Shown here piece after piece: positions 3,749 through 62,635 of a stretch of 64,000 nucleotides of DNA; the stretch's first letter is position 1; each line of letters starts with the position of its first letter. The notes beneath the pieces are model-generated. The model had not been told where the DNA came from. It was given only the letters and a program-made list of their open reading frames with translations, and did no database searches. The position numbers and the translations under genes were made by a program. Source of the DNA: Desulfoplanes formicivorans (lineage in GTDB: Bacteria > Desulfobacterota > Desulfovibrionia > Desulfovibrionales > Desulfomicrobiaceae); assembly GCF_001748225.1 (NCBI RefSeq), contig NZ_BDFE01000008.1, forward strand, positions 62,001 through 126,000, in the 5' to 3' direction.

Positions 3749-4177
3749 TTAGATATCAAGGGTAGCTGGTTTCTGGGCTGCGTGGGGATGATCAGGACCG
3801 GCATAGATCTTGAGCTTTTTGAACATGGCCCGCCCCAGCGCATTTTTGGGAAGCATGCCCTTGACCGCGTGTTCAATGACCCGTTCCGGCTTGGATTCAA
3901 GAAGGGTACGCAGATCGGTTTCCTTGAGACCTCCGGGATATCCCGAGTGGCGGTAGTATTTTTTTTGGGTAAGCTTGTGCCCGGTTACCTTGATCTTGTC
4001 GGCGTTGACAACCACCACGAAATCGCCGTTGTCCATGTGAGGGGCGAATTCGGGTTTGTGCTTGCCTCTCAAATACACGGCCACTTCTGTTGCCAGACGA
4101 CCAAGGATCTTGTCCGTAGCGTCGACAACATACCAATTATGCTGCAATTCACTTGCTTTGGGACTATATGTCTTCAT
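3749..4177 (-). CDS. rplM: 50S ribosomal protein L13
   Basis: 142 residues matching L13: the segment [17 protein letters not shown] at the N-terminus, [17 protein letters not shown] in the middle, and [17 protein letters not shown] near the C-terminus. An AGGAG lies about 10 bases before the ATG. First gene of the rplM-rpsI operon, with a consensus -35 upstream. Confidence 0.99.
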
Positions 4178-4210
4178 TACATGAGCTCCTGTGACAAACT
4201 GAAAAGAGAC

Positions 4211-4239
4211 CAGCTAGGTCATTTCCCTGAATATGTCAA
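4211..4239 (-). promoter_or_regulatory. Putative sigma70 promoter of rplM-rpsI
   Basis: On the minus strand a perfect TTGACA (-35, bases 4239-4234) is followed after 17 bases by TAGCTG (-10, 4216-4211). The expected start would leave a leader of roughly 25 bases before the rplM ATG. The -10 is weak, the -35 and spacing are ideal. Confidence 0.5.
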
Positions 4240-4461
4240 GCAAAACGGCCGATATCCTCGGGATGCCCTGCAGGTCGTTGCCCAGCCAGATGCTGGGAGG
4301 AGTGGATGATATCTGGTTGTCGTTCGTTCGACAACCAGCTTCGTTCAGTTAAGGACTTGGGTAACCAACTGGGGAATCGTGGGAAAGATTCATTCTAGAA
4401 GCATGCATGCTGATACTGGTTTTGTTCTGAAAATTCAAGAAAGAAAACATGGTTGTTCTTC

Positions 4462-4490
4462 TTGCGATTTTTTTATAGCTTTCGTATACT
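4462..4490 (+). promoter_or_regulatory. Putative sigma70 promoter of the HD-domain gene
   Basis: TTGCGA (-35, 4462-4467), a 17-base spacer and TATACT (-10, 4485-4490); a TATAAT follows directly at 4491-4496. The surroundings are AT-rich compared with the rest of the window. About 80 bases before the chosen ATG. Confidence 0.5.
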
Positions 4491-4569
4491 TATAATAACT
4501 ACAAACAGGTGGTTCCCCGCAGGATGGCCGGAAATGTTGCCGGGGGACCGTCCAAGCGAGGCTTTAACC

Positions 4570-5817
4570 ATGCCCGGTATACGCAAGAGTTTGTTACAAC
4601 TTGTTTTTTCAGGAACATCCATGAGACGGTGGAACGACAAGATGCGTCCCATGGAGCTCATGGAGGTGGACAAGCAGGCCCACAAGATGATCATGGCCTG
4701 GATGCTGTACATGCTCAACGGGTCGGATCTTGACCGCAAGGACTTTATCGATCTCGGTGACAAGATTGTTTTGGGCGGCATGTACGATTATTTGTACCGG
4801 TTGGTGATCACGGACATCAAGCCGCCCGTGTTTTACCAGATCAAGGCCAATCCCGCCCACTACCAGCAGTTGACCCAATGGGTTCTCGAGCAGCTCAAGC
4901 CCCGATTGCAGTCCCTTGGAGATCCCTTTTGGAAAGGTATGCGCGAGTATTATGCGGATGGAGCATCCCGTGATGATCTGGCCAGCAGAATTCTTGATGC
5001 CGCCCATCTTTTGGCGAGCCAGTGGGAATTTCACCTCATCAAGGATCTCAATCCCAAGGATGAGGAAATGGACGAGATCGAGGCCAATTTTATTCAAGGT
5101 ATTGAGGGGTTTCAGGATCTGATCGGGGTGCGTGAACTCATGCAGGGGAACAAAGCCTCTCTTGGAAGATTTGCCCAGCTTTGCGGTCAGCTCCGTTTCC
5201 AGCAGCGCTGGTCCCAGACACCGCGCATCCCGGAAACGGCTGTCCTTGGGCACATGTTTATTGTTGCCTGTTACGGGTATTTTTTTACCCTGATGGTCGG
5301 CGGGTGCAAGGCCAGGCGGGTGAACAATTTTTTTGCCGGTCTTTTCCATGATGTTCCGGAGCTCTTGACCAGGGACATCATTTCTCCGGTCAAGAGCTCG
5401 GTCAAACGCATCGGAGATCTGATCAAGGAGTATGAATTCAAGGAGCTGGACTCCAAGATATTTCGTACCCTGGAACAGGGTGGCTATTTCGAGCTTTCCC
5501 GCCGATTGAAATATTTTCTCGGGGTGGATGTCGGTTCCGAGTTTGCCTCGACCATCTGTCTGGAAGGCGACACGCGTGAGGTGGAGTGGGATCAGCTTCA
5601 AACAATCTATAATAACGATGACTGTGATCCCAAGGATGGATTCATGCTCAAGATCTGTGATGATCTGGCCGCGTTCATCGAAGCCTATACGGCCACACGC
5701 AATGGGATCACCAACGATCAGCTCCAGCAGGCCCTGTGGAAAATCCGCAAGAAATACCAGCAGGTCTCCCTGACCGAGACCATGCATATCGGCGGATTGC
5801 TGGCCGATTTCGATTGA
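4570..5817 (+). CDS. HD-domain protein, function unknown
   Basis: 415 residues from the ATG giving MPGIRKSLLQLVF; the frame is open further upstream, but that stretch contains the promoter. The first half is an all-alpha region. The second half carries an HD-type signature, GLFHDVPELLTRDIISPVK, with a preceding conserved His (LGHMFIVACYGYF), the layout of YfbR/HD_3-type metal phosphohydrolases acting on nucleotides. No partner domain or membrane segment is visible. A CBS-domain gene follows after 77 bases on the same strand, and CBS domains often sense adenine nucleotides, which would suit a nucleotide-metabolism role. The substrate cannot be named. Confidence 0.8.
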   Translation: MPGIRKSLLQLVFSGTSMRRWNDKMRPMELMEVDKQAHKMIMAWMLYMLNGSDLDRKDFIDLGDKIVLGGMYDYLYRLVITDIKPPVFYQIKANPAHYQQLTQWVLEQLKPRLQSLGDPFWKGMREYYADGASRDDLASRILDAAHLLASQWEFHLIKDLNPKDEEMDEIEANFIQGIEGFQDLIGVRELMQGNKASLGRFAQLCGQLRFQQRWSQTPRIPETAVLGHMFIVACYGYFFTLMVGGCKARRVNNFFAGLFHDVPELLTRDIISPVKSSVKRIGDLIKEYEFKELDSKIFRTLEQGGYFELSRRLKYFLGVDVGSEFASTICLEGDTREVEWDQLQTIYNNDDCDPKDGFMLKICDDLAAFIEAYTATRNGITNDQLQQALWKIRKKYQQVSLTETMHIGGLLADFD

Positions 5818-5894
5818 GGCAAACGCAAGTTGTCATGCACACAAGACGGGACCACGCCATGGCGACCGTTGCACAACCTGTACAAGGGGGAATC

Positions 5895-6386
5895 ATGCTA
5901 CTTCGTAAACGAGCTTGGGATATCATGCGGGAAGAATATCCCGCAGTTACCGAGGACGCCAGCCTGACCAGCGTCATCAAGGCTCTCAAGGAGAGCCGCA
6001 AGGAGTATCCTGACAACAATTTTGTTGTGGTATTGTCCAAGGACCGCAAGCAATTCAAAGGGGTCCTTTCCATGTGGAACATCATCCAGGCCATTGGCCC
6101 GTGTTTGCTCAAGAGCATGAGCCTGGGGGAGCGGGATGTGAACTGGGACGAGGCCTTCAAGCATGCCTGCGTGACCTGTGCCCAGGTGGAGATCAGGAAT
6201 TTCATGCAGGTGGACGTTCCCCGGATCAACCCCAACGAGCCGTTGGCCAGGATTTTGGAAATATTTCTGGACTACCGCCGTGGCCGGGCCATTGTTCAGG
6301 ATGGGGACAGGATTCTCGGTGTGGTTCTGTTGGCCGATCTGTATCGGGAGATCAGCAAGGATGCGACGTCATGGGAGGATGAATAG
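5895..6386 (+). CDS. CBS-domain pair protein
   Basis: 163 residues, started at the ATG giving MLLRKRAWDIMREEYPAV because AAGGGGG stands about six bases upstream. Two CBS motifs fill the protein: the first from AWDIMREEYPAVTEDASL to FKGVLSMWNIIQAI, the second from FMQVDVPRINPNEPLARIL to ILGVVLLADLYREI. No catalytic domain, so it is probably a stand-alone nucleotide-sensing module. It follows the HD gene and may regulate it; this is inference from position only. Confidence 0.85.
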   Translation: MLLRKRAWDIMREEYPAVTEDASLTSVIKALKESRKEYPDNNFVVVLSKDRKQFKGVLSMWNIIQAIGPCLLKSMSLGERDVNWDEAFKHACVTCAQVEIRNFMQVDVPRINPNEPLARILEIFLDYRRGRAIVQDGDRILGVVLLADLYREISKDATSWEDE

Positions 6387-6486
6387 GGAAGAATGTGTTC
6401 AGTACACGGTTCCCAAGGCAGAGCAGGGATGTTCTTTCGGATGGTGCAATGATCTGCATCTGGTGAACAGGATGGGCAAGATGATA

Positions 6487-6524
6487 AAGGCGCGGCAAGG
6501 GGATGATTCCCCTTGCTGCGCCTT
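6487..6524. terminator. Hairpin terminator between the CBS gene and lon
   Basis: A 17-base stem (6487-6503 with 6508-6524, one G-U type pair) around a four-base loop. On the minus strand it is followed by TTTATCAT, which favours use as the lon terminator; it lies about 130 bases past the lon stop. It may also stop plus-strand transcription from the CBS gene. Confidence 0.65.
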
Positions 6525-6654
6525 GTTGTAGGAATATGGGCAAGCAACGGTTGCAAAGACAGAGAACTTCTTCAGCGTCCCGGATCATGTGCTAGATGGC
6601 GAAAGCGGGATGTTGCGGTCATTCTTCCACCTTGCTTCTCGTCCCTGCCGGGGT

Positions 6655-58577: not shown

Positions 58578-58891
58578 GTTCGTGAAGTTCCTTGCCAGAG
58601 AAAATGGTGTATAATTGAACAAACAATATCTATCTATAGGTCTTCCCTGAATAAAGACAAGGGCATGGCCTGTGTTTTTTGGTGTGCCTGCAACACGCCC
58701 TAATACCGGCTGTTTCGGGCCGGCTGGAGTTGGTTTGCCAAGAAGATCGGCAGATTACCTGCCTTGTCATCAAGGTTTTGGCATCAGGGTCATTGAGTGC
58801 AGCCTGCCGTATCTTGGTGGAGCAGGCTTCCGTCTTGACAGGCCTGTTGAACCCGGGATACCTCGCCCCTTATTCTCGAGGAGGAGACTCT
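58578..58891. other. Divergent gap between the radical SAM gene and trmI
   Basis: 314 bases with no gene. On the plus strand TTGACA (58835-58840) with a 17-base spacer and a weak ATACCT (58858-58863) is a possible trmI promoter, with a leader of about 20 bases. The 5' third is AT-rich (58600-58660) and may hold the minus-strand promoter. Nothing else seen. Confidence 0.4.
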
Positions 58892-59656
58892 ATGCTGCAA
58901 GCCGGTCAATTGGTAATGTTAGTCAGTCCCAAGGGCAAGCGATACTTTCGCGTGCTTGATCCCGAAGATACGTTACATACGCATGATGGCAAGCTGGATC
59001 TTGCCGATGTCCTCAATCGGGGTTTTGGCGCGACCGTGAACACGCATCTTGGTCGCCCCTATTCCATTCTCTTGCCAACCCTGTACGATTTGATCAAGGG
59101 GATCAAGAGACATACCCAGATCATGTATCCCAAGGACATCGGATATGCCTTGATGCGTCTGGGTATCGGACCTGGCAAACGGGTCATTGAAGCGGGCAGT
59201 GGTTCTGGTGGCATGACCATGGCCCTGGCTTGGAGCGTGGGGGATCAGGGGTGCGTTTTTTCCTATGACAGGCGGGAGGAATTCAGTGAACTGTGTTCCA
59301 AAAACCTTGAATGGGCCGGTCTTGCGTCCCGGGTCGAGTGGTTTAACCGGGATATCAAAGAGGGGTTTTTGCAGACCGATGTGGACGCCCTTTTCCTGGA
59401 TGTACGCACTCCCTGGGACTATCTCGAGCAGGCAGCTGCTGCCATGAGCCCCGGGGCGCCCATTGGCTTTTTGTTACCCACCACCAATCAGGTCCAGGAT
59501 CTGCTCATGGCCCTTGAAGAGGCGCCTTTTGGCGATGTTGAAGTGCTTGAGATCCTGTTGCGAAAATATAAGGTCAATGGAGAGCGGTTTCGTCCTGACG
59601 ACCGCATGGTCGCTCATACGGGATTTCTGATTTTTGCCCGCAAGAACGGGGAATAG
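58892..59656 (+). CDS. trmI: tRNA (adenine-58-N1)-methyltransferase TrmI
   Basis: 254 residues from the ATG giving MLQAGQLVMLVSPKG, with GAGGAGGAG just upstream; the open frame extends 71 codons earlier without family features. SAM motif VIEAGSGSGGMTMAL, and the N-terminal barrel domain of TrmI. Modifies A58 in the T loop of tRNAs. Confidence 0.95.
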   Translation: MLQAGQLVMLVSPKGKRYFRVLDPEDTLHTHDGKLDLADVLNRGFGATVNTHLGRPYSILLPTLYDLIKGIKRHTQIMYPKDIGYALMRLGIGPGKRVIEAGSGSGGMTMALAWSVGDQGCVFSYDRREEFSELCSKNLEWAGLASRVEWFNRDIKEGFLQTDVDALFLDVRTPWDYLEQAAAAMSPGAPIGFLLPTTNQVQDLLMALEEAPFGDVEVLEILLRKYKVNGERFRPDDRMVAHTGFLIFARKNGE

Positions 59657-59990: not shown

Positions 59991-61256
59991 ATGACCCGCA
60001 AAGACCGCACAGAAGGAATCTACAGCCGACGCGAGGTTCTTGACGAGAGCGAACGCAGAAAGTTCTATCAGATTCAGCTCAAGGATCTGCTTTCCTATGC
60101 CTACAGATATTCCGAGGACGTCAAAAAACGGTTCGATCGGGCCCAGTTCGATGTGGAAAAATTCAAGGAATTGTCTGATCTCAAGCATATACCCATTCTC
60201 AAGAAAAAAGAACTCATTTTTCTCCAGTCCATGGGCCCCCGCCTTGGCGGACTCCTGACCAAGGACCTCGGAGAACTGCGACGCATTTTTCTTTCGCCCG
60301 GCCCGATCTTTGATCCCGAGGATCGCAGTGAGGATTACTGGGGATGGTCCGAAAGTTTTTACGCGGCCGGCTTCAGGCCCGGTGATCTGGCCCAGATCAC
60401 GTTCAACTATCACATGAACCCGGCAGGGCTCATGTTTGAGGAACCCCTCAAGACACTCAATTGTGCGGTTATCCCGGCCGGTCCGGGCAATACCAACAAT
60501 CAGCTGGATATTATGCAGAAGCTTCGGGTGACCGGATATGTGGGTACGCCCAGCTATCTGATGCATCTGGCCCAGAAGGGTGAGGAAAAAGGGCTCAATC
60601 TGCGCAAGGAGCTGTATCTTGAAGTGGCTTTTGTCACTGGAGAAAAGTTTTCCGAAAAGATGCGCACGACCATTGAGAAAAAATTCGATCTCATCATGCG
60701 TCAGGGGTATGGAACCGCTGACGTGGGATGTATCGGGTACGAATGCTTCCAGAAAAACGGTCTGCACGTGGCCAACCGCTGTTTTGTGGAGATCTGTCAT
60801 CCGGATACGGGCATTCCCCTGAAGGATGGGGATGTGGGCGAGATCGTGGTCACCGCCTTTAATAAGACCTATCCCCTGATTCGTCTGGCCACCGGAGATC
60901 TTTCCTACATTGACCGTGAACCCTGTGCCTGCGGCCGGACCTCGCCTCGTCTTGGCAATATTGTCGGGCGTGTGGACACGACTGCCAGGATCAAGGGGAT
61001 GTTTGTCTATCCGCACCAGGTGGAACAGGTCCTTGCCAGTTTCGAAGAGGTCAAACGCTGGCAGATCGAAGTGACCAACCCCGGCGGGATCGACGAAATG
61101 ATCCTGTCCATCGAGGCCAGCAGTTTCAAGCGTGAAGACGAGTTGTTGCATTCCTTTCGCGAGAAGATCAAGATTCGTCCTTTGCTCAAGGTGCTCGCCC
61201 CGGGAAGCCTGCCTCCCCAGATTCGGCTCATCGAGGACAAGCGCAAGTGGGATTAG
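59991..61256 (+). CDS. PaaK-like AMP-binding protein lacking the usual P-loop
   Basis: 421 residues, adenylate-forming superfamily, phenylacetate-CoA ligase group. Conserved parts: VIPAGPGNTNNQ, YVGTPSYLMHL, IMRQGYGTADVG, RLATGDLSY, GRVDTTARIKGMFVYPHQVE. The phosphate-binding loop that reads SSGTTGKPT in PaaK is replaced by SPGPIFDPE at the same place (in RIFLSPGPIFDPEDRS, about 99-114). The CoA-ligase C-terminal domain looks complete. Family members annotated as phenylacetate-CoA ligases occur in sulfate reducers; this form may be inactive, or bind the phosphate otherwise. Substrate unknown. Confidence 0.85.
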   Translation: MTRKDRTEGIYSRREVLDESERRKFYQIQLKDLLSYAYRYSEDVKKRFDRAQFDVEKFKELSDLKHIPILKKKELIFLQSMGPRLGGLLTKDLGELRRIFLSPGPIFDPEDRSEDYWGWSESFYAAGFRPGDLAQITFNYHMNPAGLMFEEPLKTLNCAVIPAGPGNTNNQLDIMQKLRVTGYVGTPSYLMHLAQKGEEKGLNLRKELYLEVAFVTGEKFSEKMRTTIEKKFDLIMRQGYGTADVGCIGYECFQKNGLHVANRCFVEICHPDTGIPLKDGDVGEIVVTAFNKTYPLIRLATGDLSYIDREPCACGRTSPRLGNIVGRVDTTARIKGMFVYPHQVEQVLASFEEVKRWQIEVTNPGGIDEMILSIEASSFKREDELLHSFREKIKIRPLLKVLAPGSLPPQIRLIEDKRKWD

Positions 61257-61314: not shown

Positions 61315-61489
61315 CCTTTGTGACAGTGGCAAGGCCCAGGCTGGCTCTCTGCCAGAGTTGTGAACGATGCAAAACGTCTGGAGGTCGCTTCATGTTGCGT
61401 GATTCCAGGGTGAAAAAGGCTTGTGGAATGTGTTTTGTGGGCGTTATGGATGGGCACTCCTGGTGCGTTGCAATGCAGGGAGAAGGAAC

Positions 61490-62635
61490 ATGGAAAGAAC
61501 AATAGTTTTTCAGTTCATGGGGCTGGCCATGATGACTCTGATTGCTGCCGGGTGTGCCCGGCACGGAATACCCCCTGCGGATCAGAAACCGGTCAACCAG
61601 CCTACCCTGCATACGTCCCGGGGAACGGTCATCACCCCGGAAAAACTGGCTGATCGCCTGGGTACGACGGGGTATCTTCTGCTGGGTGAAGGGCATACCA
61701 AGAGCTGTGACCACATGGGTCAGGCAATGATTGTTCGCGCTCTGGCAAAACAGGGACGCAGACCCGTGGTGGGACTGGAAATGGTCGCCCGGGACAAACA
61801 GCCCGTACTTGACAGGTGGAACAGGGGAGACCTGTCCCTTCAGGAGCTGGAAGACCTGCTGGACTGGAAACAACGCTGGGGACATCCTTTTGCCTTGTAT
61901 CGATCGATTTTCGAGGTGTGTCAGACGTACAAGCTGCCCCTTGCGGCCCTGAATGTTCCGCGCCGCGTGGTGGATGTGGTCCGGAAACAGGGGCTTGATG
62001 GCGTGAGTTTTAAAGACCGCCTCTACATACCCGATTCGATCATCCCGGCGACCAGACGGCAACGACAGGCTCTTCAGCCCATGCTTGCCATGCATGCACA
62101 GATGAGCGGGAACAAGGATGCTGACGCTGACAGGGAAGCCTTTTTCTTGATTCAGTCCCTTTGGGATACGGCCATGGCCGAGGCAGCCGTCAGCTGGCAC
62201 AGGAAAACCGGGCATATGGTGGTCGTTCTGGCCGGAGCCGGGCATGTGGAAAATCGTTGGGGCATTGCGGCCCGCTTGCAGACCCTTGATCCGGATGCGT
62301 CTTTGATTTCGGTCATGCCAGCACGGGACAAGGCGGATATGACCCCTCAACAAGCCGATTATTTCTATTTCTGTCCATCGGCCGGGAGCAGCCGTTTGGG
62401 ACTCGTGCTGGACATCCGGGATGATATGCTTGTGGTCAGAGGGGTGATGCCCGATTCCAGAGCCGCCAATGCAGGCTTTGAGCCGGGCGATGTGCTGGTC
62501 CTGGTTGGCGACCGGCGTATCACAAGCGCCCTTGATCTGCACAAGGTTGCCCTGCCCGCTGCCAAGGAAAACAGAGATCTTGTCTTCCAGGTGATGCGCA
62601 AAGGGGTACAAAAAAAGGTGGTTGTCCGGTTTTAG
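61490..62635 (+). CDS. ChaN-family lipoprotein fused to a PDZ domain
   Basis: 381 residues from the ATG giving MERTIVFQFMGLAMMTLIAAGC, GGGAGAAGGA upstream. Lipobox LIAAGC (Cys about 22). The ChaN/heme-binding-type domain (PF04187-like) runs from YLLLGEGHTKSCDH, conserved His at GEGH, to MVVVLAGAGHVENR with a second His. A PDZ domain fills about 295-381 (GLVLDIRDDMLVVRGV, AGFEPGDVLVLVGDRRI). Members bind heme or iron at the cell surface. Single gene, own terminator. Confidence 0.87.
   Translation: MERTIVFQFMGLAMMTLIAAGCARHGIPPADQKPVNQPTLHTSRGTVITPEKLADRLGTTGYLLLGEGHTKSCDHMGQAMIVRALAKQGRRPVVGLEMVARDKQPVLDRWNRGDLSLQELEDLLDWKQRWGHPFALYRSIFEVCQTYKLPLAALNVPRRVVDVVRKQGLDGVSFKDRLYIPDSIIPATRRQRQALQPMLAMHAQMSGNKDADADREAFFLIQSLWDTAMAEAAVSWHRKTGHMVVVLAGAGHVENRWGIAARLQTLDPDASLISVMPARDKADMTPQQADYFYFCPSAGSSRLGLVLDIRDDMLVVRGVMPDSRAANAGFEPGDVLVLVGDRRITSALDLHKVALPAAKENRDLVFQVMRKGVQKKVVVRF

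Follow-up and report, generated by a model that had tools for sequence, protein, structure and literature searches.

The window, a 64,000-nucleotide stretch of Desulfoplanes formicivorans DNA, encodes a PaaK-like protein in which the P-loop (motif A3) and the A10 lysine motif are missing, a double loss that is common to a whole subfamily beyond the window protein. On sequence grounds, we lean towards the view that this PaaK-fold subfamily would not perform the normal ATP-dependent adenylation while it would still bind acyl groups and AMP. As the ATP elements are lost across the entire branch and the protein is nearly unchanged in the Desulfovibrionales, it probably has a core job in this order that does without the usual ATP step.

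Family assignment and predicted fold

The gene and the motifs of its product are as follows (positions in the window, + strand throughout):
59991 to 61256 (+), PaaK-like protein lacking both the P-loop and the A10 lysine motif; open reading frame of 421 amino acids with Pfam and PDB matches
60282 to 60320 (+), A3/P-loop position, residues 98-110; a strand, a PGP turn and a strand replace the SSGTTGKP loop
60408 to 60413 (+), Tyr-His, residues 140-141; His141 in 62/72 family rows versus Gly in 13/13 P-loop rows
60708 to 60722 (+), A5 stretch YGTAD, residues 240-244; Tyr retained, Ser/Thr changed to Ala, region two residues shorter
60744 to 60767 (+), C252 and H259 of a Cys/His cluster conserved in the family alignment; putative metal site
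60891 to 60899 (+), A7 TGD, residues 301-303; ribose-binding D303 in 72/72 family rows
60924 to 60932 (+), C312-A-C314 of the same Cys/His cluster (family alignment)
60966 to 60971 (+), A8 GR, residues 326-327; R327 in 72/72 family rows
61200 to 61253 (+), A10 region, residues 404-421; the GK(A/S)xR of PaaK is missing, the region is about three residues shorter and a new conserved ED.R.W(D/E) tail is present

The PaaK-type ANL (adenylate-forming) homology of the window protein covers both of its domains, in sequence and in fold. Pfam reported a partial AMP-binding match (residues 165-287, 1e-7) and AMP-binding_C_2 (PF14535; residues 336-408, 3e-9), so that the C-terminal domain is present. The closest solved structures are PaaK-type ligases (PDB 4r1l, E 3.3e-45), and sequence comparison aligned 4r1l and 2y27/2y4o across almost the entire protein. 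None of the NCBIfam cut-offs was reached. The window protein scored 170 bits against the curated 646.3 bits of the PaaK equivalog TIGR02155, a cut-off that the P-loop PaaKs of the order also miss (0/41 genomes above it), and 76 bits against the 458.7 bits of TIGR03335 (Coenzyme F390 synthetase). The DVU_1553 family (NF045666) is PaaK-related like the window protein, which nevertheless stays below its curated cut-off (110.6 versus 300 bits). In annotations, proteins of the same kind as the window protein carry the name AMP-binding protein or phenylacetate--CoA ligase.

The AlphaFold2 model of the window protein (mean pLDDT 93.7) resembles PaaK over its full length, as represented by Burkholderia cenocepacia PaaK1/PaaK2 (2y27/2y4o; 2y4o_A, Z 45.4, rmsd 2.1, 403 aligned residues) and BT_0428 (4r1l_A, Z 45.0, rmsd 1.9, 407 aligned). 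It also resembles 2-Hydroxyisobutyryl-CoA ligase (HCL, 6hdw-6he2), a PaaK-type relative (E 2e-27; 6he0, Z 41.5, rmsd 2.0, 413 aligned) whose GTSGTTGRPT loop is unlike the SPGPIFDPE of the window protein. A more distant match is 3hgv_A (Z 21.9, rmsd 3.2, 287 aligned). We take 3hgu/3hgv to be EhpF, which is reportedly an atypical ANL relative; EhpF-like truncated ANL proteins lack the C-terminal domain. The solved 3hgv chains, of about 350 residues, match only residues 14-328 of our model, whereas the window protein has the C-terminal domain. The predicted thioester-like conformation was considered as evidence and rejected: the model of L004, a P-loop PaaK of the same genome that served as control, matches 2y4o_A, 4r1l (4r1l_C) and 6he0 over the full length just as the window model does, so that the conformation says nothing special.

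Replacement of the P-loop and changes in other motifs

The preliminary description had proposed, for positions 60285-60333, a P-loop replacement in a PaaK-like protein. This was borne out: SPGPIFDPE (residues 102-110, positions 60294-60320) lies opposite the SSGTTGNP/SSGTTGKP of 4r1l and 2y27/2y4o, and our alignment with PaaK and close homologues upheld the replacement for the whole subfamily. The motifs on either side had been described as kept. The flanking stretches RPGDLAQITFNY, VIPAGPGNTNNQ and ATGDLSY are indeed there, but A5 and A10 differ from those of PaaK, and the pocket strand reads YH in place of YG. According to PMC8388817, the ATP phosphates are bound in PaaK1 by Ser94, Thr96, Thr97 and backbone amides of the P-loop.

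Columns and spacings were counted in a single MAFFT alignment of 72 SPGP-type rows, comprising 11 orthologues (the window protein and 10 others, i.e. every tenth of 110) and 61 other members, with 13 P-loop PaaKs, which include 8 of the 25 loci L176-L200. An orthologue with an in-frame stop (L109), the fragments L128 and L129 and an 869-residue relative from the same genome (L006) were left out. In the family, A3 reads [S/A/N/T/H]-P-G-P: P103 and G104, which rank among the most conserved columns family-wide, occur in 72/72 rows, P105 in 68/72 and P109 in 70/72. The columns of P103-P105 hold Ser, Gly or Thr in 12/13 P-loop rows. One of the P-loop rows (X_L003) has the odd loop TTGRGNSP. The G104-G127 stretch comprises 21-25 residues in the family (22 in 54 rows) versus 29 in 13/13 P-loop rows, a shortening by 7 residues in most cases. 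L003 itself (1399-2727, + strand; G000:C16:232331-233557) is a PaaK-like protein of the Desulfoplanes genome that ends before A10; the similar places in G026 and G043 each carry one in-frame stop.

In the window model, strands 98-102 and 106-110 are joined by a turn (103-105), and the next helix spans residues 120-126. In the L004 control, strands 86-90 and 98-102 flank a seven-residue loop (block pLDDT 66) followed by helix 104-120. The comparison of the two models predicts a tight hairpin in place of the phosphate-binding loop.

At the C-terminus, GKxxR was found in 2/72 family rows versus 11/13 P-loop rows; among the 13, the 4r1l row (residues 13-421 used) ends before A10 and X_L003 has no A10 motif. 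In 14 of the 61 non-orthologue rows, the A10 stretch is devoid of both Lys and Arg. Within the shortened stretch, residue 412 is basic in every orthologue (Arg in 91, Lys in 19 of 110), and this column holds Lys or Arg in 38/61 non-orthologue members. The A10 lysine is described in PMC8388817 as conserved in aryl-CoA ligases and acting in the adenylation conformation, and a phenanthroate ligase that is active and belongs to the PaaK group retains both A3 and A10 (PMC11497795). As to A5, Ser/Thr is replaced by Ala in 60/72 family rows and the region is two residues shorter in 70/72; the adenine-stacking Y240 is retained in 69/72, and Asp244 resembles the A5 acidic residue. E218 is kept in 67 of 72 rows, and C252, H259, C312 and C314 in 64-69 of 72. 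The window protein is thus like PaaK in its A5 Tyr, A7 Asp, A8 Arg, Cys/His cluster and C-terminal domain, and unlike PaaK in lacking the A3 P-loop, the A10 GK motif and the A5 Ser/Thr and in having YH for YG.

The 72 SPGP-type rows form one side of a branch (SH-aLRT 100), and the same split was recovered (SH-aLRT 99) after removal of the A3, A5 and A10 columns (residues 95-125, 236-251 and 400 onward). The tree is unrooted and the two groups were assigned by hand from the loop, so that it speaks to the clustering of the trait on a single branch and not to the relative age of the two states. The P-loop occurs in the rest of the ANL proteins, and a loss of the P-loop rather than a gain is thus the favoured direction. 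Relatives at E <= 1e-70 occur in 79/247 genomes of the phylum, those of the order included. A plasmid search (161 records at E <= 1e-30, some of P-loop type; 8 loci inspected) found relatives in Azospirillum, Aminobacter, Paracoccus, Xanthobacter, Methylibium and others.

Conservation in the Desulfovibrionales

An orthologue was found at E <= 1e-180 in 279/297 genomes of the order (238/243 of those of good quality) and in 55/55 genera, and at E <= 1e-60 in 59/61 near relatives (49/49 of good quality); some of the absences are fragments, and G006, missed at the order level, gave a partial match in the near-relative search. Orthologues of the order are mostly 77-89% identical. The 80 loci from a contig search are 83-88% identical and mostly of Desulfovibrionales type, some being labelled only Deltaproteobacteria, Proteobacteria or Pseudomonadota. 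No variation occurs at residues 102-110 among 110/110 orthologue sequences (89 distinct), and in 107/107 distinct full-length coding sequences each of these positions has a single amino acid written with two to four codons. At the same loci, the median identity is 86% for the orthologue versus 67% for RNase G (14 loci), 59% for TrmI (16 loci) and 37% for ChaN (53 loci). The invariance of the loop despite varied codons, and an identity above that of the neighbours, indicate that selection maintains the replaced loop, and the window protein is, by these sequence measures, under strong purifying selection.

In 7 of 12 order genomes, hand-picked and mostly small, the orthologue is the sole PaaK-like protein at E <= 1e-8 (G363, G396, G340, G045, G473, G418 and G448). 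G340 includes a contig of 1457619 bases (33% GC in the stretch read) and G363 one of 1410056 bases.

Genomic neighbourhood

The genes on either side in the window are:
58679 to 59656 (+), tRNA methyltransferase, GCD14/TrmI-like, upstream neighbour
61421 to 62635 (+), protein with ChaN-like haem-binding domain and PDZ domain, downstream neighbour, present in 54/81 orthologue loci

Among the 81 orthologue loci, MutM (50/81), TrmI (17) and RNase G (15) also occur as neighbours, all such counts being minimum values, since numerous contigs stop close by. GlmS or IHF, guessed by eye from their N-termini, are among the neighbours in a set of 8 loci, mostly of small genomes. No functional link emerged from either set.

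The non-orthologue relatives lie mostly at or near the end of a Liv-type operon encoding permeases, a Peripla_BP_6 protein, an ABC ATPase and, in several cases, an AMP-binding ligase. A Liv permease accompanies 11/14 paralogue loci of the order, 27/40 phylum loci (several of the 13 others being on short pieces) and 5/8 plasmid loci, and none of the 81 orthologue loci. Other copies stand among acyl-CoA dehydrogenase, hydratase and CoA-transferase genes (Sulfitobacter, Roseibium) or adjoin an AMP-binding protein and an MFS transporter (Rhodococcus); CoA thioesters of acids are thus a theme of several relatives' gene contexts. The genome of the window encodes several P-loop PaaKs and Liv permeases at 30-40% identity. 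For the operon ligase, it offers a partial best match (E 6e-18) but no close relative, and the operon partner is therefore dispensable here.

A few loci deserve separate mention. In L133, two tandem SPGP-family copies (3892-5205 and 5275-6561) follow a Liv operon and possibly form a heterodimer. In five loci (L136, 3659-4336; L134, 5779-6438; L135; L139; L167), the SPGP gene is followed by a gene for a CBS and ACT domain protein (cluster c30), a neighbour that suggests ligand sensing. On the Xanthobacter Py2 plasmid pXAUT01 (L203, 2774-8212), the SPGP gene is beside methylmalonyl-CoA-mutase-like and B12-binding genes, together with a LAO/AO-type ATPase, a PaaD-like protein and a Liv module. 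The orthologue L109 (608-1870), from a Desulfonatronospira metagenome-assembled genome, has its single in-frame stop through either sequencing error or decay.

Proposed function and alternative explanations

A3 and A10 are both devoted to the first half-reaction, and their loss, with the nucleoside side of the site kept, points to binding of AMP/adenylate or of a CoA thioester without adenylation. We propose that the window protein would bind CoA together with either an acyl group and AMP or the acyl-adenylate. It could then be confined to catalysis of the CoA half-reaction, in the forward (acyl-AMP + CoA -> acyl-CoA + AMP) or the reverse direction, hold acyl-CoA or acyl-AMP as a sensor or scaffold, or perform a transfer using His141. 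For most relatives, the ligand would be the acid imported by the neighbouring Liv-type importer; in the Desulfovibrionales, the gene has turned into a stand-alone core gene. The preliminary idea of a non-ligase, or of a protein binding acyl-adenylate, is partly supported in that it fits the additional loss of A10 and of the A5 Ser/Thr, and we infer that the window protein may not be a ligase.

Several points speak against a loss of adenylation. The P-loop may be more dispensable in some ANL enzymes than in others, the likeness of Asp244 to the A5 acidic residue persists, and the basic residue 412, found in all orthologues and many other members, could stand in for the A10 lysine from its shifted position. 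An ATP-dependent acyl-CoA (or acyl-adenylate) ligase, with its phosphate site rebuilt from the backbone of the SPGP turn and the shifted Arg/Lys412, would moreover account for the retention of the adenine and ribose residues and of the entire fold. We nevertheless regard such a ligase as rather unlikely, since it would have to work with a short loop that has two prolines and no Thr side chains, with A10 deleted and with the A5 Ser/Thr lost, all of these together and family-wide, and since the A10 stretch of 14/61 relatives offers no basic residue.

We find it harder still to see the window protein as the pseudoenzyme half of a heterodimer, i.e. as a subunit that accompanies or regulates a normal ligase (a PaaK paralogue or the AMP-binding ligase of a Liv operon). 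The presence, in 5/8 plasmid loci, of a protein related to the conventional AMP-binding ligase of the operon and the tandem copies of L133 are in line with such a role; the solitary orthologues of 7/12 order genomes, the partial ligase match in the window's genome and the lack of Liv permeases around the 81 orthologues are not. As a general explanation in the Desulfovibrionales, a helper role towards a PaaK paralogue or towards the ligase of a local operon was rejected in view of the solitary copies and the missing permease. Decay into a pseudogene, or a sequencing artefact, has next to no credibility: the in-frame stop of L109 and one TAG in genome G055 stand against 107 distinct intact coding sequences with an invariant loop and varied codons, retention in 238/243 good genomes and a median identity well above those of the neighbours, and this explanation was rejected.

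Returning to the non-adenylating subfamily, a bolder and clearly speculative version is that an old PaaK-fold subfamily turned into ATP-independent acyl-adenylate/acyl-CoA transfer enzymes, perhaps through the new His141 in the pocket, and that one of these enzymes joined the core proteins of all Desulfovibrionales, where it may be essential and is kept even in reduced genomes. The fold and the family are known. In the open-licence PMC literature, covered mainly through titles and the openings of abstracts, we recognised no description of a P-loop-less PaaK family, nor did we find there the clade-wide loss of A3 and A10 or the order-wide core status. The words 'phenylacetate' and 'AMP-binding' are absent from the main text of a D. 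vulgaris transposon paper (PMC10102598) and of PMC10133479.

The protein described here is the product of an order-wide core gene of sulfate reducers. Its annotation as an AMP-binding protein or CoA ligase predicts the activation of an acid, which this family may be unable to perform. If adenylation has been lost, the two half-reactions of acyl-CoA synthetases would be separated in nature.
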